64,000 nt of DNA. Source: Branchiostoma lanceolatum (lineage: Eukaryota > Chordata > Leptocardii > Amphioxiformes > Branchiostomatidae). The stretch covers positions 30,699,925 to 30,763,924 of the forward strand of contig NC_089725.1 in assembly GCF_035083965.1 (NCBI RefSeq), written 5' to 3'. The position numbers and the translations under genes are program-made. Below, piece after piece: positions 2,194-64,000 of the stretch. Within the stretch, counting starts at the first letter, position 1. Each line of letters starts with the position of its first letter. Under the pieces are notes generated by a model. It was not told the origin of the DNA. It made no database searches and saw only the letters and a list, made by a program, of their open reading frames with translations.

Positions 2194-5006
2194 ATGGCAG
2201 TTCACCTGATACTAACACTTCTGATTAGTGTCTACGTCGTCTTTAGTCGGGCCAGGTTAGCGGAGGGGCGCAGCTTCAACGTTTCCGTGCCTGAAAATGT
2301 TACAGTCGGGACAGAAGTTGTCGGTGTGCGACACTGGCCGGCCATACAGAAAGCGGAACTTCCGTGTGTGAAAACGGAGGGAGATCCATACGACAGGTTC
2401 CTTCTGACTAACAGTGCACCCTTGTGGTAGCCACCCCCCTGGACTGGTCAGTACAGTCGGAATTCACCATCAAGATTCTCGTCGGGCGTCGACGAGAAGT
2501 CATGAGAGTGACGATCCAGGTTTCCGACGTCTCGGGCTATCCTCCCGTGTATAACGAGACGTGTGAAACTCCGACCAACCCAACCGGTAAGGACATTGGA
2601 GAATATCTGTTCAAAATTGACGTAAACGTGGAAGCCGAGACGGATACTGGAGACGTGTTTACAGCACAGAAGACATTCAAGAAGCATTCCGACAAACGGA
2701 CAAGCAGAAACAGGACAGCTTTATTCTACACAGAAAACAGCAATTGTCAACTACAGACGATATGAATTGTACATAACCTGAATGATATAGTTACTGCAGA
2801 CCAACTGTGGTCCGGGAAGTTCCGTAATGTGTCTTGTCGTGACGACGTCAGCAATTCCGATCTTACTCTCCACCTGTTCTCTTCATGGATGGGTGCTTCG
2901 ATGATGGGTGAATCGGCTTGGAGGTATGTCAGGGAACGATATACAGGCTCTCAAAAAAATCTCGACTTTATCTTCATGGCAACTTTGACTTTCCCAGCTA
3001 AGAGCACAGTTCGTTTTGTCTGCCAATTTCCGCAGTTTAGAAAACCTTTCAGAATAGAGTCCTCAAAATCAAGTTCAAACCCAACAAGACTTGTACACGT
3101 GCAGTCGTTAAACTTAGCTATCCATGCGCAAGGCTGTCCTGTTGGAAAGTATGGCTTACTCTGCGATAAAAACTGTATCTGTAAGAACGGCGCCCGCTGT
3201 CACGGGTTTAATGGGGCGTGTAAATGTCAACACGGCTGGCAGGGTGTAGCCTGTGACATTCCTAAGCCTGACATTGCAGTATCGACGACACCTAGCGATT
3301 CCTGGGCCATCTACATTTCCACCAACGTGACGATTCACTGTCGCGTGTACCACATTGATGTCCAAACTCTGTCGTTTCGATTTCCAAATGCATCTAAGAT
3401 CACCAGTGAAGGTGTAAATCAATTAGACATCAAGGTTTTCAATGCACAGTTACACGACAATGGTCACTATACGTGTCGGGCCAGAGACAAAGGCGGAAAT
3501 GTCTTCTATGCAACGGTTGTTTTAAACGTCAACTGTCCACCGAATAGAAAGGGTCAACTCTGTGATGAAGTGTGTGATTGCCTACATGGTGTCAGCTGTG
3601 ACCGGTGGGCTGGTTGTGTGTGTCCGCCGGGATGGACAGGAACCAAGTGTCAGACACAATGTCCGGAGGGCACGTACGGCAATAATTGTGCCAAGACCTG
3701 TGGCTGTCAAAATGGGGCGAGCTGTAGCCCTGACGACGGCAGGTGTAACTGCACGGCCGGCTGGTACGGATCGGAATGCAGCGGACCCTGCCCCAAAAGA
3801 AGGTACGGTTGGCGGTGCCGTCAGGTTTGCAGCTGTAAGAATAACGCCACCTGTCACCACGTGGACGGAAGTTGTGCGTGTGTGCCACCGTGGGGAGGGA
3901 GGAACTGTGACAAACAGACTACGTCCCTGTTAGAAATCTTTGTTCCCTTGGGCTCAATACTCCTAGTTGTTACTGTAGTACTACTCGTACTTTATAAGAC
4001 AGGATTTTCATGTAGCATCGTGAAAAACGAAGGCCACGAAGCCGAAGTTTTACGTGAACTGAGGAGAATGGAGCACGACCTAGCGCAGAGTCTACAGCCG
4101 GGCTGGCTCAAACGTTGGGAGAAGAAGATCCACCATCTTACTTCTGGTCCGCTGATAGGGGAAGGGATGTTTGGGCTCGTCAGAAGGGCACAACTGCGCA
4201 CACCGGAGGGAGAGCTCGACGTTGCCGCCAAGACAGTTCGCGTCGAGGACTCCCAGTCCTACCGAGACTTCTACAGAGAAGCAGCCATACTGGTAGCTGT
4301 GCACCAGGTACGGAATGGTGATTGCCGTGAGTCCAACATTATTCGTCTTCTGGGGCTCATCACCAAGTCTGCGGAGAAGTATATTCTTCTGGAATATGCG
4401 CCGAAAGGCGATCTGCTCGGTTTCTTACGGGGGATAAAGAACGCCCGTCAGGAAGACCTACTTGGAAACCTTCTTGGATACGCAGTCCACATATCACGAG
4501 CTCTTCAAGAACTGGAACACTTGAGAATCGCCCATCGCGACGTTGCCGCTCGCAATGTCCTGATCACTGCCGATGACGTGGCCAAGTTGGCTGACTTTGG
4601 CCTGGCCAGAGATGTCTATGCCACTACTCAGTACGTACGAACCAACCGCCAAGGCGTTGACGAATTCCTTCCGCTGAAGTGGATGGCGCTAGAGTCAATC
4701 GAGACCGGCGAGTACACCTGTCAGAGTGACGTCTGGTCCTTCGGCGTGCTGCTGTGGGAGATCGCCACGCTGGGAAAAGATCCGTGCTACGATGGCAAGA
4801 TTCAGCTGGACTTTCTTCAGATGGTAGGGATTCTGGAGCGAGGAGTACGTCTCGAGAGGCCGCCGGGATGTCCAGAGGACCTGTACCGACTGATGAGGTC
4901 GTGTTGGCGCGACGTTCCAGCTACAAGACCGACTCCAGATGGGATAGAAAAGAGGCTGCTGCAACTGCTCCCACACGACGTCATTGAAATGGAGACTGCA
5001 CTGTAG
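2194..5006 (+). pseudogene. RTK paralogue A, disrupted (frameshift plus stop)
   Basis: This is the first complete array unit. The start is the ATG in GCGTCATGG, at the same place as in the intact units. Two lesions break it relative to units D and E. One base is missing near 2411, in the segment that reads CTGACTAAGGAG in D, and an arginine codon has become TGA at 2763-2765. From 2766 the frame is open to 5006 and encodes EGF, Ig, three EGF-like modules, a membrane helix and a tyrosine kinase. The kinase keeps its glycine loop (GEGMFG), VAAK lysine, HRDVAARN and DFG motifs, and the C-terminal ETAL. Without correction the long receptor cannot be made. A downstream start would lack the signal peptide. 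It is probably a pseudogene, but recent, because the rest is not decayed. Sequencing error at either site cannot be excluded. Confidence 0.85.
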
Positions 5007-6388: not shown

Positions 6389-6745
6389 TGTCAAGCGAAA
6401 TTTCTGACCTTGCCAAATATGTGACTGAGAGGTCAGCTACTACACCTGAGCACGACACTTTTGAGGGGATTCCAGTATACGTGAGAGGAGTGCCCTAAGT
6501 GCAAAATATTCGTGGGACGTGGTGATTTTCAACCACATGTCTGACTTTATTCCTAACCATAACTCTAAGTCTAGCCCAAAACCCCTTCCCTGATCCTTAC
6601 GCTAATCCTACCTAAAAAACTTTCCCTGCCCCCATCGATCTCAGCCCTTACTTTACACGTATACTGGAATCTCCCCAGAAGTGTCGTGTTCAGGTGTAGT
6701 TGCTGACCTCTCACATATTTGGCAGCTCAGGGATTTGGCTTTACA
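6389..6745. mobile_element. MITE in the 5' flank of RTK B
   Basis: A 357-bp insertion is absent from the same place in units A, D, E and F. Its ends are inverted copies. The left end begins TGTCAAGC and continues to CCAAATATGTGA and a block containing CACCTGAGCACGACAC. The right end is its reverse complement with few changes, giving inverted repeats of about 100 bp. GCGG stands on both sides (6385-6388 and 6746-6749) and may be a 4-bp target duplication. No coding capacity. It ends about 90 bp upstream of the ATG, so it may affect the promoter or 5' UTR. Confidence 0.75.
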
Positions 6746-6837: not shown

Positions 6838-8706
6838 ATGGCAGTTAAACTGTTACTGACACTTCTGATTAGTGTCTACGTCGTCTTCAGTCGGGCCAGG
6901 TTAGCGGAGGGGCGCAGCTTCAACGTTTCCGTGCCTGAAAATGCTGAAGTCGGGACAGAGGTCGACGGTGTGCGACACTGGCTGGCCATGCAGAAACTTC
7001 CGTGTGTGAAAACGGAGGGAGATCCGTACGGCAGGTTCCTTCTGACTAACGAGTGCACCCTTGTGGTCGCCAACCCCCTGGACTGGTCAGTGCAGTCGGA
7101 ATACACCATCAAATTTCACGTCGGGCGTCGTCGAGAAGTTACGAGCGTGGCGATACAGATTACCGACGTCTCGGGCTATCCTCCCGTGTATAACGAGACG
7201 TGTGAAACTCCGATCAACCCAACCGGTAAGAACACTAGAGAATATCTGTTCAAAATTGACGTGAACTTTGAAGCCGAGACGGATACTGGAGACGTGTTTG
7301 TTGGTAGAAAGACAATAAGCATGCGGCCGAACGACAGGACACCTAATTCTACAATATTCTATACAGAAAACAGCAGTTGTCACTTGGAGGTGTTGTTGTT
7401 TTTAACTAACCTGACGTATTTAGTAGCTGCAGAGCAGCTGTGGTTAGGAAAGTTCCGTAACATGGCTTGTCGTTCAGACATTAGCAATTCCGACATTTCC
7501 ATTAACCTGCTCATGGGTGATTCCATTCCGTGGTACTACAGGCCACTATTTCCAGTCTACATCAACTCTATATTGAAGTCAATTTTTACTTTCCCAGCAA
7601 AGAGTACAGTTCGTTTTGTCTGCAAAGTTCCTCAGTTAGGAAAACCAGTCAGAATAACCCCACCCCCAAACCCCACAAGACTTGTACATGTGCAGTCATT
7701 GAACATAGAACTCCATCCGCAAGGCTGTCCTGCTGGAAAATACGGCTTACTCTGCGATAAAAACTGTATCTGTAAGAATGGCGCCCGCTGTCATGGGTTC
7801 AACGGGGCGTGTAAATGTCAACACGGCTGGCAAGGTGTAGCCTGCGACATTCCTAAACCTGACATTGCATTGACGACGACACTAAGCGATTCTCGGGCCA
7901 TCTACATGTCATCCAATGTGACGATTTACTGCCGTGTGTACCACATTGATGTCGAAACTCTGTCGTTCCGGTTTCCAAATACATCTGAGATCACAAGTGA
8001 AGGAGTAAATCAATTCAACGCAAAGGTTTTCAACGCACAGTTACACGACAAAGGTCACTATACGTGTCAGGCAAGAGACAAAGGCGGAAAGGTCTTCAAT
8101 GCAACAATTATGTTGAATGTCAACTGTCCACCAAATAGAAAAGGCGAACTCTGTGATGAAGTGTGTGATTGCCTACATGGGGCCAGCTGTGACCGGTGGA
8201 CTGGTTGTGCGTGTCCGCCGGGATGGACGGGAACCAGGTGTCAGACACAATGTCCGGAGGGCATGTACGGTAAAGGCTGTGCCAAGACCTGCGGCTGTCA
8301 AAATGGGGCGAGCTGTAGCCTTGACGACGGCAGGTGTAACTGCACGGCCGGCTGGTACGGATGGAATTGCGACGGAGCCTGTCCAAAAAGCAGGTACGGT
8401 TGGCGGTGCCGACAGGTTTGCAGCTGTGAGAACAACGCCACCTGTCACCACGTGGACGGCAGCTGTGCGTGTGCGCCACCGTGGGGAGGGAGGAACTGTG
8501 ACAAACCTGCCGTCACCCAGGCCACATCGCTGATCGAAATCCTTGTTCCCCTGGGCTCAATACTCCTGGTTGTTATTGTAGTACTAATCGTGCTTTACAA
8601 GACAGGATTTGCATGTAGCGTCGTGAAAAACGAAGGCCACGAAGCCGAAAATAGACTGTTGCAACTGCTTCCACATGACGTCATTGAAATGGAGACTGCA
8701 CTGTAG
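6838..8706 (+). CDS. RTK paralogue B, kinase-less membrane receptor
   Basis: Predicted 622-aa type I membrane protein. The ATG at 6838 matches the start of the other units; an in-frame extension to 6700 exists only because of the inserted MITE. It has a signal peptide (about 1-23), cadherin-like segment, a region of unknown fold, EGF, Ig (with CRVYHID and HYTCQA), three EGF-like modules and a membrane helix at about 564-588. The cytoplasmic side is only about 34 residues: after EGHEAE the sequence jumps to NRLLQLLPHDVIEMETAL, the end of the normal receptor. Compared with unit C, exactly 903 bp (301 codons) between two GAA triplets are missing, removing the juxtamembrane part and the whole kinase without shifting frame. 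It could act as a decoy or dominant-negative receptor (inference). It carries the same MITE as C and is its closest relative. An assembly artefact is possible but would have to be in frame. Confidence 0.85.
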   Translation: MAVKLLLTLLISVYVVFSRARLAEGRSFNVSVPENAEVGTEVDGVRHWLAMQKLPCVKTEGDPYGRFLLTNECTLVVANPLDWSVQSEYTIKFHVGRRREVTSVAIQITDVSGYPPVYNETCETPINPTGKNTREYLFKIDVNFEAETDTGDVFVGRKTISMRPNDRTPNSTIFYTENSSCHLEVLLFLTNLTYLVAAEQLWLGKFRNMACRSDISNSDISINLLMGDSIPWYYRPLFPVYINSILKSIFTFPAKSTVRFVCKVPQLGKPVRITPPPNPTRLVHVQSLNIELHPQGCPAGKYGLLCDKNCICKNGARCHGFNGACKCQHGWQGVACDIPKPDIALTTTLSDSRAIYMSSNVTIYCRVYHIDVETLSFRFPNTSEITSEGVNQFNAKVFNAQLHDKGHYTCQARDKGGKVFNATIMLNVNCPPNRKGELCDEVCDCLHGASCDRWTGCACPPGWTGTRCQTQCPEGMYGKGCAKTCGCQNGASCSLDDGRCNCTAGWYGWNCDGACPKSRYGWRCRQVCSCENNATCHHVDGSCACAPPWGGRNCDKPAVTQATSLIEILVPLGSILLVVIVVLIVLYKTGFACSVVKNEGHEAENRLLQLLPHDVIEMETAL

Positions 8707-9301
8707 ACATTCTGTATCTGGAAATGACATATAAACTGTCGGTACGCAGACTGAACATGTGCTACGGTTTTGCCCTGGCAGTCATCAAATCAGCAACGTA
8801 CGCTCCCTGGCTATCTCCAGGTCGAAGTCAGACATACAGCATACAACTTAGGTACATCCGACACTACAAACGGCCAACCGGGACTAAGCGGCACCTATCT
8901 AGTCCCTTCTCATCAATTTTTCCAAATTCTGAATGCGCTGTAAATTTCCGACTGAATTGTGTTGAAAGACTTGCTGTAAAACAGAAGTTTAATGATAATG
9001 TCATGGACAATACTTGGACTTTGTACTTTTTTCTTGGATATTTCAGATATGATGTATCATACTCCATGATATATTTCTAACTAGATAAGGTAACTTAATG
9101 ATTGAACTGTGATTAAATACTTGCTGTAACCCAGAAATGCTTACGGTTGAAGTGTGTGTAAAGTTTGCTGTAACCCAGAATTGTCTTGGCAGTCATGAAC
9201 AATACTTTTTAATGGAATTTAATTCTATCAGATGTTGTTAATAATTCCCCTTAGTATATTGTTCACAAGTTGATGAAAAACTCAGATTTCAATAGGTTCT
9301 A

Positions 9302-9307
9302 AATAAA
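9302..9307 (+). terminator. Polyadenylation signal of RTK B
   Basis: AATAAA about 600 bp after the stop codon, in TTCTAAATAAAATG, at the position shared by the units. Confidence 0.55.
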
Positions 9308-10096
9308 ATGATTTTTTACTGCATGCGATGTGTTATATTTATATGTTTGTAGCTGTAATTCGTGCATTCTTAAAGTTCTATAAGTTTTAGGGAACTCTCT
9401 TGTAATAGAAAGTTGTGCAGTTGAGCCTCTCTTGGTACAAACAAGCGGCTAGCTTTTATTTCATGCTACTTTTGAACGGTGGAAACAAATCAGTCTACTA
9501 CTTTTGCTACTTAAGAAATGCTGTTTATTTGCTAAATTTATGGAGACCGTCACTTACTTATTTTCAAGCTCACGTTAACCTGCATACACATTTGCTGACA
9601 TGAAGGAAATGAACCATGGGAAATGGTCGATCGTCATGAATGTCCAGTTCTGTAACTATGGAGCTTTGTCTCTTTCCCATGCAATAGAGTGGTTTCTATA
9701 AACCAAAGTCACAGATTTACAAATGAACACATCATTACAATTAACTTTAAGTGCTACAAGGTTAGAAAGAGGCGCTTTTAGGGCAATGTTACTTAATCAC
9801 CAGTAAGCAGAATTTCAAGATATATTTTGTACTTTGTAGTTGACCGTAAGAACGTCAATAAACCTTCCGCCTCCACTTTTCAGCGGTGTTAGTATCCAAT
9901 GTCATTTTCCCAGTAGATTATGAGAAACATGAACCCAAACCTGGACACTCGATACCCTTTCGTCACTGCCGCGGCCAATGGCGGCCCTGTCGCGGAAGAA
10001 TAGGTTTGTGACCGTAAACAAGCCTGTGGAATCCATCCCACCGACTTTTTGTTATACATGGTAGTCCAAGCCTATCCAAACAGACGTGAAATTCGG

Positions 10097-10469
10097 TGTC
10101 AAGCGAAATTTCTGACCTTGCCAAATACGTGACCGACAGGTCAGCTACTGCACCTGAGCACGACACTTTTAAGGGGATTCCAGTATACTTGAGAGGAGTG
10201 CTCTAAGTGCAAAATATTTGCGGGACGTGGTGAGTTTCAACCACATGTCTAAACCTATTCCTAACCATAACTCTAAATCTAGCCCAAAACCCCTTCCCTA
10301 ATCCTTACGCTAATCCTACCTAAAATAATTTTCCCTGCCCCCATTGTTCTCAGCCCTTACTCCACACAGGTGCCCCTCTCACGTATACTGGAATCTCCCC
10401 AAAAGTGTCGTGTTCAGGTGTAGTAGCTGACCTCTCACATATTTGGCAGCTCAAGGATTTGGCTTTACA
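10097..10469. mobile_element. MITE in the 5' flank of RTK C
   Basis: A 373-bp copy of the element found before unit B, at the same position, with the same inverted ends beginning TGTCAAGC and closing with GGCTTTACA. Sharing the insertion site shows that B and C descend from one unit that already carried it. An extra GGTGCCCCTCTC stretch near 10369 restores part of the right inverted repeat that is shorter in B. Confidence 0.75.
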
Positions 10470-10561
10470 GCGGAAGTTCCTTGCTTGCACTTGACGTGTC
10501 CCTATATGAGTTCCACGGTTTGCTACTGTCGGTAACTTCCCTGTTAGAGGACGGCCGCGTC

Positions 10562-13321
10562 ATGGCAGTTAAACTGATACTGACACTTCTGATTAGTGTC
10601 TACGTCGTCTTCAGTCGGGCCAGGTTAGCGGATGGGCGCAGCTTCAACGTTTCCGTGCCTGAAAATGTTACAGTCGGGACAGAGGTCGACGGTGTGCGAC
10701 ACTGGCTGGTCATGCAGAAACTTCCGTGTGTGAAAACGGAGGGAGATCCGTACGGCAGGTTCCTTCTGACTAACGAGTGCACCCTTGTGGTCGCCAACCC
10801 CCTGGACTGGTCAGTACAGTCGGAATACACCATCAAATTTCACGTCGGGTATCGTCGAGAAGTCAGTAGTGTGTCGATACAGGTTACCGACGTCTCGGGC
10901 TATCCTCCCGTGTATAACGAGACGTGTGAAACTCCGATCAACCCCACCGGTAAGGACACTAGAGAATATCTGTTCAAAATTGACGTGAACTTTGAAGCCG
11001 AGACGGATACTGGAGACGTGTTTGTTGGTAGAAGGACAATAAGCATGCGCCCGAACGACAGGACACCTAATTCTACAATATCCTATACAGAAAACAGCAG
11101 TTGTCACTTGAAGGTTTTGTTGTTTTTAACTAACCTGAATGATTTAGCAGCTGCAGAGCAGCTGTGGTTTGGAAAGTTCCGTAACATGGCTTGTCGTTCA
11201 GACATTAGCAATTCCGAAATTTCCATTGACCTGCTTATGGGTGATCTAATTCCGTGGTACTACAGGCCACTATTTTCAGGCTACATCAATTCTATATTGA
11301 GGTCAACGTTGACATTCCCAGCAAAGAGTACGGTTCATTTTGTCTGCAAATTTCCGCAGTTAGGAAAACCGTTCAGAATAACCCCACCCCCAAACCCCAC
11401 AAGGCTTGTACATGTGCAGTCATTGAACATAGAACTCCATCCGCAAGGCTGTCCTGCTGGAAAATACGGCTTACTCTGCGATAAAAACTGTATCTGTAAG
11501 AATGGCGCCCGCTGTCACGGGTTCAACGGGGCATGTAAATGTCAACACGGCTGGCAAGGTGTAGCCTGCGACATTCCTAAACCTGACATTGCAGTAACGA
11601 CGACACCTAGCGATTTCTGGGCCATCTACATGTCACCCAACGTGACGATTCACTGCCGTGTGTACCACATTGATGTCCAAACTTTGTCGTTCCGCTTTCC
11701 AAATGCATCTGAGATCACGAGTGAAGGAGTAAATCAATTCGACCTAAAGGTTTTCAACGCACAGTTACACGACAATGGTCACTATACGTGTCAGGCAAGA
11801 GACAAAGGCGGAAAGGTCTTCAATGCAACAATTGTGTTGAATGTCAACTGTCCACCAAATAGAAAAGGCGAACTCTGTGATGAAGTGTGTGATTGCCTAC
11901 ATGGTGCCAGCTGTGACCGGTGGGCTGGTTGTGTGTGTCCGCCGGGATGGGCGGAAACCAGGTGTCAGACACAATGTCCGGAGGGCATGTACGGTAAAGG
12001 CTGCACAAAGACCTGTGGCTGTCAACATGGGGCGAGCTGTAGCCCTGACGACGGCAGGTGTAACTGCACGGCCGGCTGGTACGGATCGGAATGCGGCGGA
12101 CCCTGTCCCAAAAGCAGGTACGGTTGGCGGTGCCGTCAGGTTTGCAGTTGTGAGAACAAGGCCACCTGTCACCACGTGGACGGCAGCTGCGCGTGTGTGC
12201 CACCGTGGGGAGGAAGGAACTGTGACATTCAGACTGCGTCCCTGATAGAAATCCTTGTTCCCTTGAGTTCAATACTCGTAGTTGTTACTGTAGTACTAAT
12301 CGTACTTTATAAGACAGGATTTGCATGTAGCGTCGTGAAAAATGAAGGCCACGAAGCCGAAGTTTTGCGTGAACTGAGGAGAATGGAGCACGATCTAGCG
12401 CAGAGCCTACAGCCGGGCTGGCTCAGACGTTGGGAGAAGAAGATCCACCATCTTACTCCTGGTCCGCTGATAGGGGAAGGGATGTTTGGGCAAGTCAGAA
12501 GGGCACAACTGCTCACACCTGAGGGAGAGCTCGACGTGGCCGCCAAGACAGTTCGCGTGGAGGACTCCCAGTCCTACCGAGACTTTTACAGAGAAGCAGC
12601 CATACTGGTAGCTGTGCACCAGGTACAGAATGGTGATCGCCGTGAGTCCAACATTATTCGTCTTCTGGGGCTCATCACCAAGTCTGCAGAGAAGTACATT
12701 CTTCTGGAATATGCGCCGAAAGGCGATCTGCTCGGTTTCTTACGTGGAATAAAGAATACCCGCCAGGAAGACCTACTTGGAAACCTTCTTGGATACGCAG
12801 TCCACATATCACGAGCTCTTCAAAAACTGGAACACTTAAGAATCACCCATCGCGACGTGGCCGCTCGTAATGTCCTGATCACTGCCGATGACGTGGCAAA
12901 GTTGGCTGACTTTGGACTGGCCAGAGATGTCTATGCCACTACTCAGTACGTAAAAACCAACCGTCAAGGCGTGGACGAATTTCTTCCGCTGAAGTGGATG
13001 GCGCTAGAGTCCATTGAGACGGGCGAGTACACCTGTCAGAGTGACGTCTGGTCCTTCGGCGTGCTGCTGTGGGAGATCGCCACGCTGGGGAAAGACCCGT
13101 GCTATGATGGGAGGATTCAGCTGGACTTTCTTCAGATGGTAGGGATTCTGGAGCGAGGAGTACGTCTCGAGAGGCCGCCGGGATGTCCAGAGGACCTGTA
13201 CCGACTGATGAGGTCGTGTTGGCGCGACGTTCCCGCTACAAGACCGACTCCAGATGGGATAGAAAAGAGACTGCTGCAACTGCTTCCACATGACGTCATT
13301 GAAATGGAGACTGCACTGTAG
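10562..13321 (+). CDS. Intact receptor tyrosine kinase, paralogue C
   Basis: Single-exon 919-aa type I membrane receptor; the ATG at 10562 is chosen from conservation across units. Order: signal peptide, cadherin-like segment (VPEN near the start, DVSGYPPVYN at its end), a region without a recognised fold, EGF-like module, Ig domain, three EGF-like modules of the Tie/MEGF kind (CPPGWAETRC, CNCTAGWYGSEC), membrane helix, kinase. The kinase has GEGMFGQV, VAAK, HRDVAARNVL, DFGLARDVY and the RTK-type PLKWMALES, so it should be active. Two tyrosines (DVYATTQYV) sit in the activation loop. It ends EMETAL, a class I PDZ-ligand pattern. The ligand is unknown. EGF and Ig content recalls Tie receptors, and the cadherin-like start recalls RET, but I do not assign it to either family. 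It shares the upstream MITE and two missing codons near residue 55 with B. Confidence 0.9.
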   Translation: MAVKLILTLLISVYVVFSRARLADGRSFNVSVPENVTVGTEVDGVRHWLVMQKLPCVKTEGDPYGRFLLTNECTLVVANPLDWSVQSEYTIKFHVGYRREVSSVSIQVTDVSGYPPVYNETCETPINPTGKDTREYLFKIDVNFEAETDTGDVFVGRRTISMRPNDRTPNSTISYTENSSCHLKVLLFLTNLNDLAAAEQLWFGKFRNMACRSDISNSEISIDLLMGDLIPWYYRPLFSGYINSILRSTLTFPAKSTVHFVCKFPQLGKPFRITPPPNPTRLVHVQSLNIELHPQGCPAGKYGLLCDKNCICKNGARCHGFNGACKCQHGWQGVACDIPKPDIAVTTTPSDFWAIYMSPNVTIHCRVYHIDVQTLSFRFPNASEITSEGVNQFDLKVFNAQLHDNGHYTCQARDKGGKVFNATIVLNVNCPPNRKGELCDEVCDCLHGASCDRWAGCVCPPGWAETRCQTQCPEGMYGKGCTKTCGCQHGASCSPDDGRCNCTAGWYGSECGGPCPKSRYGWRCRQVCSCENKATCHHVDGSCACVPPWGGRNCDIQTASLIEILVPLSSILVVVTVVLIVLYKTGFACSVVKNEGHEAEVLRELRRMEHDLAQSLQPGWLRRWEKKIHHLTPGPLIGEGMFGQVRRAQLLTPEGELDVAAKTVRVEDSQSYRDFYREAAILVAVHQVQNGDRRESNIIRLLGLITKSAEKYILLEYAPKGDLLGFLRGIKNTRQEDLLGNLLGYAVHISRALQKLEHLRITHRDVAARNVLITADDVAKLADFGLARDVYATTQYVKTNRQGVDEFLPLKWMALESIETGEYTCQSDVWSFGVLLWEIATLGKDPCYDGRIQLDFLQMVGILERGVRLERPPGCPEDLYRLMRSCWRDVPATRPTPDGIEKRLLQLLPHDVIEMETAL

Positions 13322-19086: not shown

Positions 19087-21897
19087 ATGGCAGTTCACCT
19101 GATACTAACACTTCTGATTAGTGTCTACGTCGTCTTCAGTCGGGCCAGGTTAGCGGAGGGGCGCAGCTTCAACGTTTCCGTGCCTGAAAATGTTACAGTC
19201 GGGACAGAAGTTGTCGGTGTGCGACACTGGCCGGCCATACAGAAAGCGGAACTTCCGTGTGTGAAAACGGAGGGAGATCCGTACGGCAGGTTCCTTCTGA
19301 CTAAGGAGTGCACCCTTGTGGTAGCCACCCCCCTGGACTGGTCAGTACAGTCGGAATTCACCATCAAGATTCTCGTCGGGCGTCGACGAGAAGTCATGAG
19401 TGTGACGATCCAGGTTTCCGACGTCTCGGGCTATCCTCCCGTGTATAACGAGACGTGTGAAACTCTGATCAACCCCACCGGTAAGGACACTGGAGAATAT
19501 CTGTTCAAAATTGACGTAAACGTGGAAGCCGAGGCGGATACTGGAGACGTGTTTGCGACTAGACATACAATAAGCTGGAACGACAGGACAACTAACCCGA
19601 AACCATTCTACACAGAAAACAGCAATTGTCAATTGCAGGCGATACGTGTTTTACATCACCTGAATGATATAGTTGCTGCAGACCAACTGTGGTCCGGGAA
19701 GTTCCGTAATGTTTCTTGTCGTGACGACGTCAGCAATTCCGATTTTACTCTCCACCTGTTCTCTTCAATGACGGGTGTTTCGACAGTGATGCGTGAGTCG
19801 GCTTGGAGGTATGTCAGGGAACGATATACAGGCTCTCTAAATGTCGAATTTATCTTCATGGCAGCTTTGACTTTCCCAGCTAAGAGCACAGTTCGTTTTA
19901 TCTGCCAATTTCCGCAGTTTAGAACACCTTTCAGAATAGAGTCCTCAAAATCAAGTCCAAACCCAACAAGACTTGTACACGTGCAGTCGTTAAACTTAGC
20001 TATCCATCCGCAAGGCTGTCCTGTTGGAAAATACGGCTTACTCTGCAACAACTGTATCTGTAAGAACGGCGCTCGCTGCCACGGGTTCAATGGGGCGTGT
20101 CGATGTCAACACGGCTGGCAGGGTGTAGCCTGTGACATTCCTAAGCCTGACATTGCTGTATCGACGACACCTAGCGATTCCTGGGCCATCTACATTTCCA
20201 CCAACGTGACGATTCACTGTCGCGTGTACCACATTGATGTCCAAACTCTGTCGTTTCGATTTCCAAATGCATCTAAGATCACCAGTGAAGGTGTAAATCA
20301 ATTAGACATCAAGGTTTTCAATGCACAGTTACACGACAATGGTCACTATACGTGTCGGGCCAGAGACAAAGGCGGAAATGTCTTCTATGCAACGGTTGTT
20401 TTAAACGTCAACTGTCCACCGAATAGAAAAGGTCAACTCTGTGATGAAGTGTGTGATTGCCTACATGGTGTCAGCTGTGACCGGTGGGCTGGTTGTGTGT
20501 GTCCGCCGGGATGGACAGGAACCAAGTGTCAGACACAATGTCCGGAGGGCACGTACGGCAATAATTGTGCCAAGACCTGTGGCTGTCAAAATGGGGCGAG
20601 CTGTAGCCCTGACGACGGCAGGTGTAACTGCACGGCCGGCTGGTACGGATCGGAATGCAGCGGACCCTGCCCCAAAAGTAGGTACGGTTGGAGGTGCCGA
20701 CAGGTTTTCAGCTGTGAGAACAACGCCACCTGTCACCACGTGGACGGCAGCTGTGCGTGTGTGCCACCGTGGGGAGGGAGGAACTGTGACAAACTTCACG
20801 TTATTCAGACTACTTCCCTAATCGAAATCCTTGTTCCCCTGGGCTCAATACTCCTAGTTGTTATTGTAGTACTAATCGTACTTTATAAGACAGGATTTTC
20901 ATGTAGCGTCGTGAAAAACGAAGGCCACGAAGCCGAAGTTTTGCGTGAGCTGAAGAGAATGGAGCACGACCTAGCACAGAGCCTACAGCCGGGCTGGCTC
21001 AGACGTTGGGAGAAGAAGATCCACCATCTTACTCCTGGTCCCTTGATAGGGGAAGGGATGTTTGGGCTCGTCAGAAGGGCACAGCTGCGCGCACCGGAAG
21101 GAGAGCTCGACGTGGCCGCCAAGACAGTTCGCGTGGAGGACTCCCAGTCCTACCGAGACTTCTACAGAGAAGCAGCCATACTGGTAGCTGTGCACCAGGT
21201 ACAGAATGGTGATCACCGTGAGTCCAACATTATTCGTCTTTTGAGGCTCATCACCAAGTCTGCAGAGAAGTACATTCTTCTGGAATATGCCCCAAAAGGC
21301 GATCTGCTCGGTTTCTTACGGGGGATAAAGAACACCCGTCAGGAAAACCTACTTGGAAACCTTCTTGGATACGCAGTCCACATATCACGAGCTCTTCAAG
21401 AACTGGAACACTTGAGAATCGCCCATCGCGACGTGGCCGCTCGGAACGTCCTGATCACTGCCGATGACGTGGCCAAGTTGGCTGACTTTGGACTGGCCAG
21501 AGATGTCTATGCCACTACTCAGTATGTCCGATGCAACCGTCCAGGCGTGGACGAACTCCTTCCGCTGAAGTGGATGGCGCTGGAGTCCATTGAGACCGGC
21601 GAGTACACCTGTCAGAGTGACGTCTGGTCCTTCGGCGTGCTGCTGTGGGAGATCGCCACGCTGGGAAAAGATCCGTGCTATGATGGCAGGATTCAGCTGG
21701 ACTTTCTTCAGATGGTAGGGATTCTGGAGCGAGGAGTACGTCTCGAGAGGCCGCCGGGATGTCCAGAGGACCTGTACCGACTGATGAGGTCGTGTTGGCG
21801 CGACGTCCCAGCGACAAGACCGACTCCAGATGGGATAGAAAAGAGGCTGCTGCAACTGCTTCCACACGACGTCATTGAAATGGAGACTGCACTGTAG
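19087..21897 (+). CDS. Intact receptor tyrosine kinase, paralogue E
   Basis: Single-exon receptor of 936 aa with the same order of modules as D. The reading frame and all kinase motifs (GEGMFG, VAAK, HRDVAARN, DFG, DVWSFGVLLWE) are intact. Two ectodomain changes may weaken folding. The first EGF lost one codon (LLCNNC against LLCDKNC in the others). Residue 541 in the last EGF is Phe instead of a Cys conserved in every other unit that has this module (TTC at 20707-20709, VFSCENN against VCSCENN). The activation loop reads QYVRCNRPGVDELL, more diverged than in the others. Its EGF block GVSCDRWAG to YGNNCAKTC is identical to that of pseudogene A, although other parts group with D. The C-terminus is again EMETAL. 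Confidence 0.9.
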   Translation: MAVHLILTLLISVYVVFSRARLAEGRSFNVSVPENVTVGTEVVGVRHWPAIQKAELPCVKTEGDPYGRFLLTKECTLVVATPLDWSVQSEFTIKILVGRRREVMSVTIQVSDVSGYPPVYNETCETLINPTGKDTGEYLFKIDVNVEAEADTGDVFATRHTISWNDRTTNPKPFYTENSNCQLQAIRVLHHLNDIVAADQLWSGKFRNVSCRDDVSNSDFTLHLFSSMTGVSTVMRESAWRYVRERYTGSLNVEFIFMAALTFPAKSTVRFICQFPQFRTPFRIESSKSSPNPTRLVHVQSLNLAIHPQGCPVGKYGLLCNNCICKNGARCHGFNGACRCQHGWQGVACDIPKPDIAVSTTPSDSWAIYISTNVTIHCRVYHIDVQTLSFRFPNASKITSEGVNQLDIKVFNAQLHDNGHYTCRARDKGGNVFYATVVLNVNCPPNRKGQLCDEVCDCLHGVSCDRWAGCVCPPGWTGTKCQTQCPEGTYGNNCAKTCGCQNGASCSPDDGRCNCTAGWYGSECSGPCPKSRYGWRCRQVFSCENNATCHHVDGSCACVPPWGGRNCDKLHVIQTTSLIEILVPLGSILLVVIVVLIVLYKTGFSCSVVKNEGHEAEVLRELKRMEHDLAQSLQPGWLRRWEKKIHHLTPGPLIGEGMFGLVRRAQLRAPEGELDVAAKTVRVEDSQSYRDFYREAAILVAVHQVQNGDHRESNIIRLLRLITKSAEKYILLEYAPKGDLLGFLRGIKNTRQENLLGNLLGYAVHISRALQELEHLRIAHRDVAARNVLITADDVAKLADFGLARDVYATTQYVRCNRPGVDELLPLKWMALESIETGEYTCQSDVWSFGVLLWEIATLGKDPCYDGRIQLDFLQMVGILERGVRLERPPGCPEDLYRLMRSCWRDVPATRPTPDGIEKRLLQLLPHDVIEMETAL

Positions 21898-34368: not shown

Positions 34369-37300
34369 ATGGGCTACAAGCTGGCGATGTTCCTGGGTCT
34401 GTCCGCCCTCCTGATGGTGGACCAAGCAGACTCGAGCTCGCTCAGACAGAAGAGGTAGGCTGAGGTCATCTTCTCAGTAGTCTAGGAATCAAGACACCTA
34501 AGATGAGAAGTAGTGGATGACTTAAGTAAGGCCTAGGAAAAACATGTGTTTCAGGTTACCGGCATACCCTAGATAAAAACTTGCCGACCTTAGACTTTTC
34601 TGCGGTGGACCGTTGGCCAGGGATATACAATTTTCAGTCTTACATCTGAGTGATAAAAGGCCAATTAGTCTTGAAATTTGACAGTTGTTTATTAAAAACA
34701 AATTAAGTAGAAATTTTGTCATTTTCCACCAGGCTCGCGCCTCAGGAAGCACGCACTCTGCTGGACCTGCTGAGGGTGGAAATGGAGGACAGCGCCCTGG
34801 CGGAGAGCGAACAGTTCCTGAGGGGCGGAGAAGAGGAGGGAGATGGCCATGCGCGTCGCTTTATTATACGTAACCCTTGGAGTAACCCTTGGTCTCTCCC
34901 TATGCCGCAACCTAAACCTAACCCTGGCCCTTTCCCTGGCGTTTGGCCTGGCGTTTGGCCTGGCTTTTGGCCTAGCCTTTGGTCTGGCCTTGCCAAGCCT
35001 AGCCCTGCACCTGGCCCTGCAACTGGACCCGAGACTGGACCCGAGACTGGATCCGAGTCTGGGTCCGAGTCTGGATCCGAGTCTGGATCCGAATTATCCC
35101 CTGCTGACAACATATTCAGCAACGTGTTTGGCCCTGCAACTGGCCCCGAGACTGGCCCTGCAACTGGTCCCGAGACTGGCCCCGAGACTGGCCCCGAGAC
35201 TGGCCCCGTGACTGGACCCCTGACTGGACCCGAGACTAGCCCCGAGACTAGCCCCGAATTAGGCGCTGCGTTTGACAACATGTTCAGCAACGTGTTTGGC
35301 CCTGCAACTGGCCCCGAGACTGGCCCCGCAACTCGTCCCGAGACTGGATCCGCGACTGGACCCGCGACTGGACCCGAGACTGGCCCCGTGACTGGACCCG
35401 GGACTGGCCCCGTGACTGGACCCGGGACTGGCCCCCTGACTGGACCCGGGACTGGACCCGAGACTGGACCCGAATTATCCCCTGCTGACAACATATTCAG
35501 CAACGTGTTTGGCCCTGCAACTGGCCCCGAGACTGGACCCGAGACTGGCCCCGGGACTGGACCCGAGACTGGACCCGAATTATCCCCTGCTGACAACATG
35601 TTCAGCAACGTGTTTGGCCCTGCAACTGCCCCTGCAACTGGCCCCGAGAGTGGCCCCGTGACTGGACCCGAGACTGGACCCGAGACTAGCCCCGAATTAG
35701 GCGCTGCGTTTGACAACATGTTCAGCAACGTGTTTGGCCCTGCAACTGGCCCCGAGACTGTCCCCGAGAATGGCCTCGAGACTGGACCCCTGGCTGGCCC
35801 CGAGACTGGCCCCGAGACTGGCCCCGGGACTGGACCCGAGACTGTACCCGAGACTGGACCCGAGACTGGACCCGAGACTGGACCCGAGACTGGACCCGTG
35901 TCTGGGCCCGAGGCTGGAACCGAGTCTGACCCCGAATTAGGCGCTGCGCTTGACAACATATTAAGCAACGTCTTTGGCCCTACATCTGGCCCTGTGCCTG
36001 GCCCCGAAGCTGACCCCGAGTCTGGCCCCGAGTCTGGCCTCGAGTCTGGCGTCGAGTCTGGCCCTACAACAGGCCCGGAGTCTGGGCTCGAGTCTGGTCC
36101 TACAACAGGCCCTGAGTCTGGCATCGAGCCTGGCGTCGAGTCTGGTCCTACAACAGGCCCGGAGTCTGGCGTCGAGTCTGGTCCTACAACAGGCCCTGAG
36201 TTTGGCCCCGAGTCTGGGGTCGTGTCTGGCCCTACAACAGGCCCGGAGTCTGGCGTTGAGTCTGACCCTACAACAGGCCCGGAGTCTGGGATCGAGTCTG
36301 GTCCTACAACAGGCCCTAAGTCTGGCCCCGAGTCTGGGGTCGAGTCTGGCCCTACAACAGGCCCGGAGTCTGGCGTTGAGCCTGGCGTTGAGTCTGACCC
36401 TACAACAGGCCCGGAGTCTGGTCCTACAACAGGCCCGGAGTCTGGCCCCGAGTCTGGGGTCGAGTCTGGCCCTACAACAGGCCCGGAGTCTGGCGTCGAA
36501 CCTGGCTTTGAGTCTGACCCTACAACAGGCCCGGAGTCTGGCGTCGAGTCTGGTCCTACAACAGGCCCGGAGTCTGGCCCCGAGTCTGGGGTCGAGTCTG
36601 TCTCTACAACAGGCCCGGAGTCTGGCGTCGAGTCTGGTCCTACAACAGGCCCGGAGTCTGGCGTCGATCCTGGCGTTGAGTCTGGCCCTACAACAGGCCC
36701 GGAGTCTGGCTTCGAGTCTGACCCTATAACAGGCCCGGAGTCTGGCGTCGAGTCTGGTCCTACAACAGGCCCTGAGTCTGGCGTCGATCCTGGCGTTGAG
36801 TCTGGCCCTACAACAGGCCCGGAGTCTGGCGTTGAGCCTGGCGTTGAGTCTGGCCCTACAACAGGCCCGGAGTCTGGCGCCGAGCCTGGCGTTGAGTCTG
36901 GCCCTACAACAGGCCCGGAGTCTGGCCTCGAGTCTGGGGTCGAGTCTGGCCCTACAACAGGCCCGGAGTCTGGCGTTGAGCCTGGCGTTGAGTCTGACCC
37001 TACAACAGGCCCGGAGTCTGGCGTCGAGTCTGGTCCTACAACAGGCCCGGAGTCTGGCGTCGATCCTGGCGTTGAGTCTGGCCCTACAACAGTCCCGGAG
37101 TCTGGCGCCGAGCCTGGCGTTGAGTCTGGCCCTACAACAGGCCCGGAGTCTGGCGTCGAGCCTGGCGTTGAGTCTGGTCCTACAACAGGCCCGGAGTCTG
37201 GCGTCGAGTCTGGCCCTACTACGCTAGGACCTGGAAGCTCTGATGGTGTTGGTGAAGATCCCACCACACTTGAGCGGTAAGCTAACGTCAATGTAATTTT

Positions 37301-60543: not shown

Positions 60544-63500
60544 ATGTCTGTGTCGGCCTTGTTTACGTACCTGAATGCCCAGACGTGTGTGATCCTGGGG
60601 TTTGTGTTCCTGCTGGCCTACTGGTACCTCCGGACCCGGGCTGCTCCAAACCTCCCCCCGGGGCCGTGGGCACTGCCGGGGCTCGGGAACGTGCTGCAGA
60701 TGGCCACAAAGGTGGGTTTGCTACTTTTACTTGATAAGCAAGACCCATGGCAACATAGATATTAAGTTACATACCTCAGGACCCGGGCACCGCCCAACCT
60801 CCCCCCGGGGCCGTGGGCGCTGCCGGGGCTGGGGAACGTGCTGCAGATGGCCACAAAGGTGGGTTTGCTACTTTTACTTGATAAGCAAGACCCATGGCAA
60901 CATAGATATTAAGTTACATACCTCAGGACCCGGGCACCGCCCAACCTCCCCCCGGGGCCGTGGGCGCTGCCGGGGCTGGGGAACGTGCTGCAGATGGCCA
61001 CAAAGGTGGGTTTGCTACTTTTTTCTGCTCGCTAAGCCAGACATTACATATAGAAACCATGGCAACATTCATAAATAATAACAGTTACATACCTCCGGAT
61101 CCGGGCACCGCCCAACCTCCCCCCGGGGCGGTGGGGACTGCCAGGTCTGGGGAACGTGTTGCAGATGGCCACAAAGGTGGGTTTGCTGCTTTCTTCCACT
61201 TGCTACGTTAGACATTACATACAGAAACCAAGGCAACATTCATAAATAATAACAGTTACATACCTCCGGATCCGGGCACCGCCCAACCTCCCCCCGGGGC
61301 GGTGGGGACTGCCAGGTCTGGGGAACGTGTTGCAGATGGCCACAAAGGTGGGTTTGCTACTTTCTTCCACTTGCTACGTTAGACATTACATACAGAAACC
61401 AAGGCAACATTCATAAATAATAACAGTTACATACCTCCGGATCCGGGCACCGCCCAACCTCCCCCCGGGGCGGTGGGGACTGCCAGGTCTGGGGAACGTG
61501 TTGCAGATGGCCACAAAGGTGGGTTTGCTGCTTTCTTCCAATTGCTACGTTAGACATTACATACAGAAACCAAGGCAACATAGATAGATATACCTCTTGA
61601 CCGCGACACCTCCCAACACCCCCACCCCCACAGGGCCGGGGGCACTGCCAAGTGTGGGGCTTCAAAGGTGGTTCACAAAGCGGCGGGGTTGGTACTTCTA
61701 TTTGATAAAGTCACGGTTACTCACTGCTTAAGATTCTCTTTTTCACTGCCGGGGCACATCGTTGAGGGCTTTAAGGGCCGGACTAGCGACCGCCCTGCCA
61801 TATTAACCACCCGTCCACGCACTCCCCCCCCCCGTCAGTGATACCCCTGTAGGGGTTTTCAGAGGGCATTAAGAAGAAGAAGACGAAGACACATAGCCGA
61901 ACGCGACCCCCCGATCTCCCCCCAATCATGGTTGGGAGTGGTTCGGGAGCGATTGTTTTGAAATTGTCAAAATTAGGCCACACCTACACTTGGTCATGAT
62001 CAAAACTGGTCAGACCGAATGTTTTGAAATTTTCAACATTAGGCCACACGTCAACTAGGTCATGATCAAAACTGATCAGACCGAATGTTTTGAAATTTTC
62101 AAAATTAGGCCACACGTCAACTAGGTCAAAACTGGTCAGACCGAATGTTTTGAAATTTTCAAAATTAGGCCACACGTCAACTAGGTCAAAACTGGTCAGA
62201 CCGAATGTTTTGAAATTTTCAAAATTAGGCCACACGTCAACTAGGTCAAAACTGGTCAGACCGAATGTTTTGAAATTTTCAAAATTAGGCCACACGTCAA
62301 CTAGGTCAAAACTGGTCAAACCGAATGTTTTGAAATTTTCAAAATTAGGCCACACGTCAACTAGGTCAAAACTGGTCAGACCGAATGTTTTGAAATTTTC
62401 AAAAGTAGGCCACACGTCAACTAGGTCAAAACCGGTCAGACCGAATGTTTTGAAATTTTCAAAAGTAGGCCACACGTCAACTAGGTCAAAACTGGTCAGA
62501 CCGAATGTTTTGAAATTTTCAAAATTAGGCCACACGTCAACTAGGTCAAAACTGATCAGACCGAATGTTTTGAAATTGTCAAAATTAGGCCACACGTCAA
62601 CTAGGTCAAAACTGGTCAGACCGAATGTTTTGAAATTTTCAAAATTAGGCCACACGTCAACTAGGTCAAAACTGATCAGACCGAATGTTTTGAAATTGTC
62701 AAAATTAGGCCACACGTCAACTAGGTCAAAACTGGTCAGACCGAATGTTTTGAAATTTTCAAAATTAGGCCACACGTCAACTAGGTCAAAACTGGTCAGA
62801 CCGAATGTTTTGAAATTGTCAAAATTAGGCCACACGTCAACTAGGTCAAAACTGGTCAGACCGAATGTTTTGAAATTGTCAAAATTAGGCCACACGTCAA
62901 CTAGGTCAAAACTGGTCAGACCGAATGTTTTGAAATTGTCAAAATTAGGCCACACGTCAATTTGGTCAAAACTGGTCAGACTGCTCCCGACCTACCACCA
63001 ACTTAAGTTAAATAGTGTTCGGGAGCTATGTTCGGTCCTTGGTTCGGCTATGTGCAACCGGGGCTTAAGTCAGATCTGACATATAGAAACCAATGCAGCA
63101 TAAATATATGCAAACATGGCCTCGAAGTATTTTGATATGCATGGGTGCACTTCTACCGGTGCAAAACTTCGATCGAGTCCACAACACAACATAAAACAGC
63201 ACAATAGAGTAGAAATAGCCTAAAACTGCAGACACATTACTGATTCTAAAGTGCTTTGAACAAATATAATGGCAGAATTAAGAGTGCTACGTTTATCATT
63301 TTGTCACATGAAGTGAAATAAATCCAGAAATTCTCGCTATGGCAATACCTTTGCATTGCCACATGTACACTTACGCCAAATATAATTACTCACGCAACTA
63401 GATGCACCTACTCAATGTACATGGATAACTTTTTTTGGCGTATCTTATCACCCGGACGTCTAACCTTCATCAACACATGTACACTTGTTGATCTAGGTTC

Positions 63501-64000
63501 CTCATCTGACCTGGACGGAACTCGGAAAGACGTACGGGCCTGTGGTGTACCTCCGACTGGGGAGCCAGCAGATCGTCGTGCTGAACAGCTACTCGGCCAT
63601 CCACGAGGCCCTGGGGAGGAAAGGGGAGGACTTCTCCAGCAGACCCGCCTGGTACACCTTTCAGCAGATGGGCTTCATGGACTACGGTAAGTGGTATCTG
63701 TTTATCATAAAATGCTAGCTTGTCGTGCTGAACAGCTACTCGGCCATCCACGAGGCCCTGGGGAGGAAAGGGGAGGACTTCTCCAGCAGACCCGCCTGGT
63801 ACACCTTTCAGCAGATGGGGTTCCTGGACTACGGTAAGTGGTATCTGTTTATAATGAAAGACTAGATTGTAACGTACTGAACAGCTACTCGGCCATCCAC
63901 GAGGCCCTGGGGAGGAAAGGGGAGGACTTCTCCAGCAGACCCGCCTGGTACACCTTTCAGCAGATGGGCTTCATGGACCACGGTAAGTGGTATCTGTTTA
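60544..64000 (+). CDS. CYP2-like cytochrome P450, 5' part only
   Basis: Two exons are visible. Exon 1 (60544-60711, 56 codons) has an N-terminal membrane anchor (TCVILGFVFLLAYWYL), then the proline-rich hinge PNLPPGPWALPGLGN, and ends AAG|GTGGGT in phase 0. Exon 2 (63497-63686) starts after TTGATCTAG and reads VPHLTWTELGKTYGPVVYLR, then LGSQQIVVLNSYSAIHEALG and GEDFSSRPAW, ending TACG|GTAAGT in phase 1. These are the first two exons of a microsomal CYP2-type mono-oxygenase. The heme-binding part lies beyond the window. The start has A at -3. Both exons have partial tandem copies after them; intron 1 is full of repeats. Substrate unknown; a role in xenobiotic or steroid oxidation is only the family's general role. 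Confidence 0.85.
60624..61670 (+). repeat. Tandem copies of the 3' part of P450 exon 1
   Basis: The exon 1 segment encoding LRTRAPPNLPPGPWALPGLG, NVLQMATK, plus its donor AAAGGTGGGTTTG, is repeated. Copies start (Arg codon) at 60631 (true exon), 60778, 60925, 61096, 61267, 61438 and a decayed one at 61597. Steps are 147, 147, 171, 171, 171 and 159 bp, all multiples of three. Copies 2-6 keep the frame and donor. Only the second and third have an AG (CTCAG|G) placed as a possible acceptor. A stop in the intron part ends read-through at 60763. Confidence 0.9.
61889..63065. mobile_element. TIR element containing the minisatellite
   Basis: The left end ACACATAGCCGAACGCGAC is inverted on the right (GGTTCGGCTATGTGCAACCG). 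Inner parts such as GTTCGGGAGC and CAGACTGCTCCCGA match the inner element at 28708-29565 in reverse orientation. It sits in P450 intron 1. Confidence 0.65.
61965..62985. repeat. 60-bp minisatellite, about 17 copies
   Basis: Unit AAAATTAGGCCACACGTCAA followed by CTAGGTCAAAACTGGTCAGA and CCGAATGTTTTGAAATTTTC. From 62101 the period is exactly 60. The first two copies carry an extra ATGATC. Variants (TTTTC/TTGTC, GGTCA/GATCA) show a 120-bp higher-order repeat between 62521 and 62760. The long ORFs on both strands result from the period being a multiple of three. Confidence 0.95.
63373..63473. mobile_element. Penelope fragment beside P450 exon 2
   Basis: A 101-bp insertion with 13-bp target duplications CACATGTACACTT (63360-63372 and 63474-63486). 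It matches the Penelope ends at 38.8 kb in two opposite pieces: ACGCCAAATATAATTACTCA, and inverted GGCGTATCTTATCACCCGGA with CGTCTAACCTTCATCAA. Confidence 0.8.
63719..63982 (+). repeat. Two tandem copies of the 3' part of P450 exon 2
   Basis: After exon 2 the segment from GTCGTGCTGAACAGC to the donor TACGGTAAGTGG is repeated, ending at 63833 (147 bp on) and 63982 (149 bp on). Each encodes LNSYSAIHEALGRKGEDFSS and RPAWYTFQQMGF. The third copy reads MDHG instead of MDYG. Neither copy has a clear acceptor. More copies may follow beyond the window. Confidence 0.9.

Follow-up and report, generated by a model that had tools for sequence, protein, structure and literature searches.

TrkB.T1 and FGFRL1 are the closest described counterparts of a receptor that retains its outer part and lacks its kinase. 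TrkB.T1 captures ligand and forms heterodimers, and in both ways inhibits full-length TrkB, as stated in an excerpt of PMC8934854. FGFRL1 occurs across many animal phyla, amphioxus included, according to an excerpt of PMC2754479. It was initially taken for a decoy and has since been credited with more roles, and mice without its intracellular part are viable, which indicates that the outer part can carry a role; both points come from an excerpt of PMC12026108.

A comparison of these receptors with a locus of Branchiostoma lanceolatum shows likenesses and differences. The window, the whole stretch of 64,000 nucleotides that was analysed, holds a tandem receptor array whose copy B resembles TrkB.T1 in being a membrane receptor with a full ectodomain and a short tail devoid of a kinase. 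TrkB.T1, in contrast, is a splice form of one gene with an unrelated ectodomain, whereas B is a separate tandem copy carrying a genomic deletion. Like FGFRL1 and nou-darake, B is a gene of its own for a kinase-less relative of receptor tyrosine kinases. FGFRL1, however, is ancient and has an FGFR-type ectodomain of three Ig domains, while B, with one Ig region and EGF modules arranged as EGF-Ig-EGF, is a young copy whose full-length kin still lie next to it in the array.

A phmmer search aligned residues 398-566 of B to the ectodomain of the Angiopoietin-1 receptor (Tie2/Tek) with an E-value of 1.4e-21. The ectodomain of Tie/Tek receptors follows the order Ig-Ig-EGFx3-Ig-FN3. B differs from Tie2 in having a single Ig between EGF modules and a different N-terminal region, and no Pfam match to FN3 was found in it at E<=0.01. 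When the intact copy C was compared with 2165 PDB sequences, the best 60 were led by a chain named EGFR, followed by FGFR (FGFR3/4), RET and ABL kinases, and no Tie2-named chain was among these 60. No title on this receptor array was present among the literature titles listed, in a collection that covers a minority of the subscription journals; D'Aniello 2008, a reference in the excerpt of PMC8662651, is titled on tyrosine kinase expansion in amphioxus.

The array consists of six head-to-tail copies, A to F, of one receptor-tyrosine-kinase gene on the plus strand at about 2.2-24.2 kb (Table 1). Copies C, D and E each consist of one unbroken ORF, with introns possible in the untranslated parts, and share a layout of signal-like start, N-terminal region without a Pfam match, EGF and Ig modules, membrane helix and tyrosine kinase. 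The kinase matches PF07714 at E<1e-61 in these three and in the open part of A, while NCBIfam gave only weak bacterial kinase models for C, each below its cut-off. Relative to D, copy A is shifted by -1 near 2412 and by +4, +7 and +1 at 2666-2705, and its frame reopens at 2889 and continues through the kinase. Copy F has lost 1947 bp relative to D and E (1938 relative to A), which fuses about 215 N-terminal ectodomain residues, signal-like start included, to the end of the kinase; hydropathy finds no membrane helix in it. The break points of F have CT in common. With A frameshifted and F carrying an in-frame internal deletion, damage is common in the array. The 3' flank of F is unlike that of the other units and thus places the right end of the array at F, while the first 230 bases of the window resemble, by eye, the 3' flank of a unit, so that the array probably continued leftward.

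Table 1. Positions of the array copies and of the features of copy B within the window
Feature	Position	Strand	Basis or remark
Copy A, N-terminal part frameshifted	2194..5006	+	ORF list, alignment
Inverted-repeat element, 5' flank of B	6426..6713	+	arms 58 nt, 91% complementary
Copy B, receptor ORF without a kinase, 622 aa	6838..8706	+	ORF list, Pfam
B, signal-peptide-like hydrophobic start, residues 1-19	6838..6894	+	hydropathy window mean 1.83
B, first EGF-type module, residues 310-337	7765..7848	+	Pfam EGF_laminin
B, Ig domain, residues 348-421	7879..8100	+	Pfam Ig_2
B, EGF-rich module, residues 429-556	8122..8505	+	phmmer match to Tie2 ectodomain
B, membrane helix, residues 568-586	8539..8595	+	Kyte-Doolittle maximum 3.33
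GAA at the deletion junction of B, 903 bp missing	8647..8649	+	alignment
B, C-terminal tail kept, 18 residues, end ETAL	8650..8703	+	alignment
AATAAA in 3' flank of B, site common to C, D and E	9302..9307	+	flank comparison
Copy C, intact receptor tyrosine kinase, 919 aa	10562..13321	+	ORF list, Pfam
903 bp of C missing from B	12362..13264	+	residues 601-901, 301 aa
Copy D, intact receptor tyrosine kinase, 936 aa	14813..17623	+	ORF list, Pfam
Copy E, receptor tyrosine kinase, 936 aa, one consensus ectodomain cysteine gone	19087..21897	+	
Copy F, internal deletion in frame, 287 aa	23350..24213	+	ORF list, Pfam, hydropathy

Copy B follows the layout of C, D and E, by hydropathy and Pfam, through its signal-like start, ectodomain and one membrane helix. 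It differs from a receptor tyrosine kinase in the cytoplasmic part, where no Pfam kinase match appears at E<=0.01, and it thereby combines a missing signalling domain with a retained membrane anchor, as a decoy does. Its EGF_laminin match (E 1.9e-4) scores 21.9 bits against a cut-off of 21, its Ig_2 match (E 9.2e-6) scores 26.3 bits, slightly below the gathering score of 27, and the limits of the EGF-rich module were drawn by eye; NCBIfam returned no match for B. A consensus cysteine column is one with cysteine in at least three of B, C, D and E, and by this measure the ectodomains of C and D, like that of B, have lost none. Y587, at the edge of the membrane, is the last tyrosine of B. The C-terminal end fits the class I PDZ-ligand pattern, which is S/T-x-hydrophobic. 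The AATAAA lies 596 from the stop in B and 599, 583 and 587 in C, D and E, respectively, and A has AATGAA at this site. A structure prediction for B, drawn from the six window proteins, gave a mean pLDDT of 32.4 and a pTM of 0.19 and is unusable.

The deletion that sets B apart is exact. An earlier note, made from the letters of this stretch, had claimed that B lacks precisely 903 bp between two GAA triplets when compared with C, and the alignment bears this out: the interval is 903 bp in A, C, D and E and 0 in B. Because all four copies that have the stretch agree (F is without it), the claim does not depend on the choice of C for the comparison. The Pfam kinase of C spans residues 636-903, so the loss removes a juxtamembrane stretch and essentially the whole kinase. 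The fusion of the membrane helix to the last residues of the receptor also stands, with the correction that 18 residues are kept and not 17. Seventeen of these 18 equal those of C, and the first is a K to N change (AAG to AAT): after the GAA, B reads AAT AGA CTG where C reads AAG AGA CTG, a change private to B. The same note was right that frame, ectodomain cysteines and C-terminus are all kept, as the ORF of 622 aa, the absence of any consensus cysteine loss and the retained tail confirm. The two break points have 3 bp (GAA) in common; random joins share at least 3 bp with a probability of 0.05 by a simple formula, which suggests microhomology joining. The precision of the event is less striking given that any deletion keeps the frame one time in three and that F also carries an in-frame internal deletion.

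Assembly goes wrong easily where similar units stand in tandem, and the kinase of B could have been lost in that way, or the deletion could be a rare allele of the sequenced animal, which is possible. An artefact of this sort is improbable, with several observations against an assembly collapse. A repeat collapse would not join at break points that share only 3 bp, the junction carries the private AAG to AAT change, and B has a diverged ectodomain of its own and a 3' flank 10-12% from all other copies; the window contains no N letters. A retroposed message from which the kinase had been removed by alternative splicing is far less probable still, even though the coding sequence of each of C, D and E is unbroken, as such an origin would have it. 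The 5' flank of B, inverted-repeat element included, and its 3' flank align to those of other units, which argues for duplication at the DNA level. Furthermore, the alignment never gives the deleted stretch both a GT start and an AG end, wherever the 3-bp ambiguity is placed, and neither a poly(A) tract nor a target-site duplication was noticed by eye around B. On the shared flanks and the break points without GT...AG, splicing or retroposition was rejected as the origin of the deletion.

The copies differ in their history from region to region. Region trees group B with C with a support of 1.0 in the 5' flank, the N-terminal region and EGF1-Ig, and with 0.94 and a short joint branch in EGF2-4/membrane. 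In the 3' flank tree B is not with C: over 600 bp, B differs by 10.2, 10.8, 12.0 and 10.7% from A, C, D and E, respectively, where A and C differ by 4.5% and C and D by 4.1%. Among the copies, the kinases and most 3' flanks resemble one another more closely than the ectodomains do, so the copies read as mosaics produced by gene conversion or unequal exchange. The 3' half of B lies outside this homogenisation, as expected if the homologous kinase had been lost long ago, a weak argument because the 5' flank of C, part of the same intergenic stretch, is equally odd. The intergenic stretch between B and C (8707-10561) is the most divergent intergenic unit, as if spared homogenisation. The inverted-repeat element directly 5' of B is found at the same place only in C (10135-10436), and the flank alignment shows none in A, D, E or F; it is MITE-like, marks the shared ancestry of B and C and could alter their promoters. 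At 7326-7583, in the N-terminal ectodomain, B and C differ from A, D and E by about 25-36%, compared with roughly 5-15% in most neighbouring stretches and 19-22% just downstream. This patch is possibly a ligand-specificity region.

Other repeats lie elsewhere in the window. Cytochrome P450-like exon pieces with splice-donor-like ends are tandemly repeated at 60544-61581, with periods of 147 and 171 bp, and at 63570-64000, with a period of 147 bp to the end of the window; Pfam p450 matches 63506-63685 (E 1.1e-9), and the first P450-like exon gave no match. A 60-bp satellite at 61950-62981 has 17 copies, each with a palindrome-like TTTTGAAATTTTCAAAA. Long ORFs on both strands at 34742-37280 (832 aa on the plus strand, without a Pfam match, and 460 aa on the minus strand) run over Gly-Pro-rich tandem repeats of 12, 36 and 48 bp.

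Selection on B was assessed with a custom codon model on the four sequences B, C, D and E, in which changes are few and power is low; seven region definitions were tried and p-values are uncorrected. Over all 597 shared codons, ω of B is 0.56 against 0.47 for the rest (2ΔlnL 0.33), and ω_B=1 is borderline (2ΔlnL 3.81, p about 0.05); the counts for B, 34 nonsynonymous and 21 synonymous, differ from neutral at p 0.046. The regions differ among themselves: ω_B is 0.82 in residues 1-295 (rest 0.77), 0.69 in residues 296-428 (rest 0.175, p 0.028 uncorrected) and 1.18 in residues 429-556 (rest 0.39, p 0.14). In the EGF-Ig-EGF part, residues 296-556, ω_B is 0.83 against 0.25, with an uncorrected p of 0.012 in one of seven regions (0.012 x 7 = 0.08); here ω_B=1 is not rejected (p 0.68), while ω_C is 0.26 and ω_C=1 is rejected (p 0.017). 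In the membrane and juxtamembrane part (residues 557-604, 45 codons), ω_B is 0.16, the rest 0.26, and ω_B=1 is rejected at p 0.009; gene conversion of the other copies in this part blurs the meaning of the B branch there.

The comparison of Ka/Ks between the ectodomains of B and C, which the earlier note had proposed as a check, comes out mixed. Across residues 1-556, C is constrained (ω_C 0.37, ω_C=1 rejected at p 0.009), and ω_B is 0.78 against 0.48 for the rest (p 0.17), with ω_B=1 not rejected (p 0.48). By parsimony, B has 32 nonsynonymous and 14 synonymous changes and C has 16 and 16, against a neutral expectation of 2.85:1, and setting the counts of B directly against those of C shows no significant difference (Fisher p 0.10 for residues 1-556 and 0.29 overall). 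Of the 474 columns on which C, D and E agree, B altered 28; of the 463 on which B, D and E agree, C altered 17. From the codon data the ectodomain of B looks relaxed, on a thin contrast, and its faster change could also be adaptation.

The frame of B is cleaner than a wholly neutral branch would predict. The ORF list and the alignment show no stop and no private indel or frameshift in its coding part, the 12 bp by which it differs from C near residue 557 being common to D and E, so the disrupted reading frame of a pseudogene is not seen in its 622 codons. A wholly neutral B branch is modelled to give the ectodomain about 2.4 stops and 1.8-4.4 frameshifts, and the modelled probability of none is 0.001-0.015, under an assumed indel-to-substitution ratio of 0.04-0.10, guided by eye, and a frameshift share of 0.7. 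The clean frame, improbable under full neutrality, therefore indicates that constraint was lost late or in part. Taken together, rates and frame in the ectodomain alone are best fitted by neutrality over 0 to 0.26 of the branch, and the upper limits lie at 0.38-0.86. These estimates allow a deletion part-way along the B branch followed by drift, and they are equally compatible with a decoy that was maintained all along, though under selection that was weaker or of another kind. A clock on the whole ORF, with upper limits of 0.21-0.48 of the branch, was replaced, as it leaned on the membrane segment that has been converted in the other copies.

The reading that we favour, with moderate confidence, takes the kinase deletion of B as real and the array as one that evolves by birth and death; B would be a silent receptor if expressed, now under relaxed selection. 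The anatomy that the deletion left is plain; as to the route, 903 bp may have been lost by a join at the 3-bp GAA, and the frame would have been kept by ordinary chance, so that the membrane helix, with a little of the juxtamembrane region, now runs directly into the final 18 residues. If expressed, B would sit in the membrane as a type I protein without phosphorylation signalling, where it could bind the ligand of the array or pair with full-length C, D and E, and so would act as a ligand sink or dominant-negative partner, as TrkB.T1 does and as was proposed for FGFRL1. The rates suggest that a by-product drifting since a deletion after the split of B and C is more likely than a long-maintained decoy. 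Against drift stand the whole-ORF ω_B, which is not different from the rest, the low ω_B of the membrane and juxtamembrane part, and the 3' flank of B, an outlier to the homogenised copies that fits an old deletion and thus long upkeep of the frame.

A B that is expressed and selected and damps the full-length copies through ligand binding or dead dimers is a reading that we hold to be rather unlikely. Its kept tail may then hold B at the same scaffold, and the change in EGF-Ig-EGF would be binding being tuned. The open frame, the full set of consensus cysteines, the low ω_B of the membrane and juxtamembrane part and the kept poly(A) site are in its favour, as are the lack of private frameshifts and stops where a neutral branch predicts several, a tail without tyrosine beyond Y587, and the precedent of FGFRL1, in which a receptor without a kinase can fulfil a role through its outer part. 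It is weakened by the ectodomain, where ω 1 is not rejected for B, and by the chance that upkeep of the frame predates the deletion. Of the natural decoy proposed in the earlier note, the in-frame loss of the kinase, the anchor, the cysteines and the absence of a private stop all hold; neutral decay of the ectodomain, which that note had named as grounds against it, is partly borne out by the ω_B of 0.78. A broader and more doubtful idea is that the array breeds its own antidote: unequal exchange would yield full-length receptors, and in-frame deletions would yield the membrane-bound B and possibly a secreted F, both damping the array, with the EGF-Ig-EGF part of B fast through tuned trapping and its membrane part conserved.

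Both outcomes bear on how such receptors are read. If B is drifting, as favoured here, it would be an ordinary intermediate of birth and death and would caution against calling a copy a decoy on the strength of its open frame alone. Should B instead prove to be expressed and kept, it would offer a young receptor without a kinase next to its signalling parents, in which the origins of FGFRL1-like decoys may be traced step by step.
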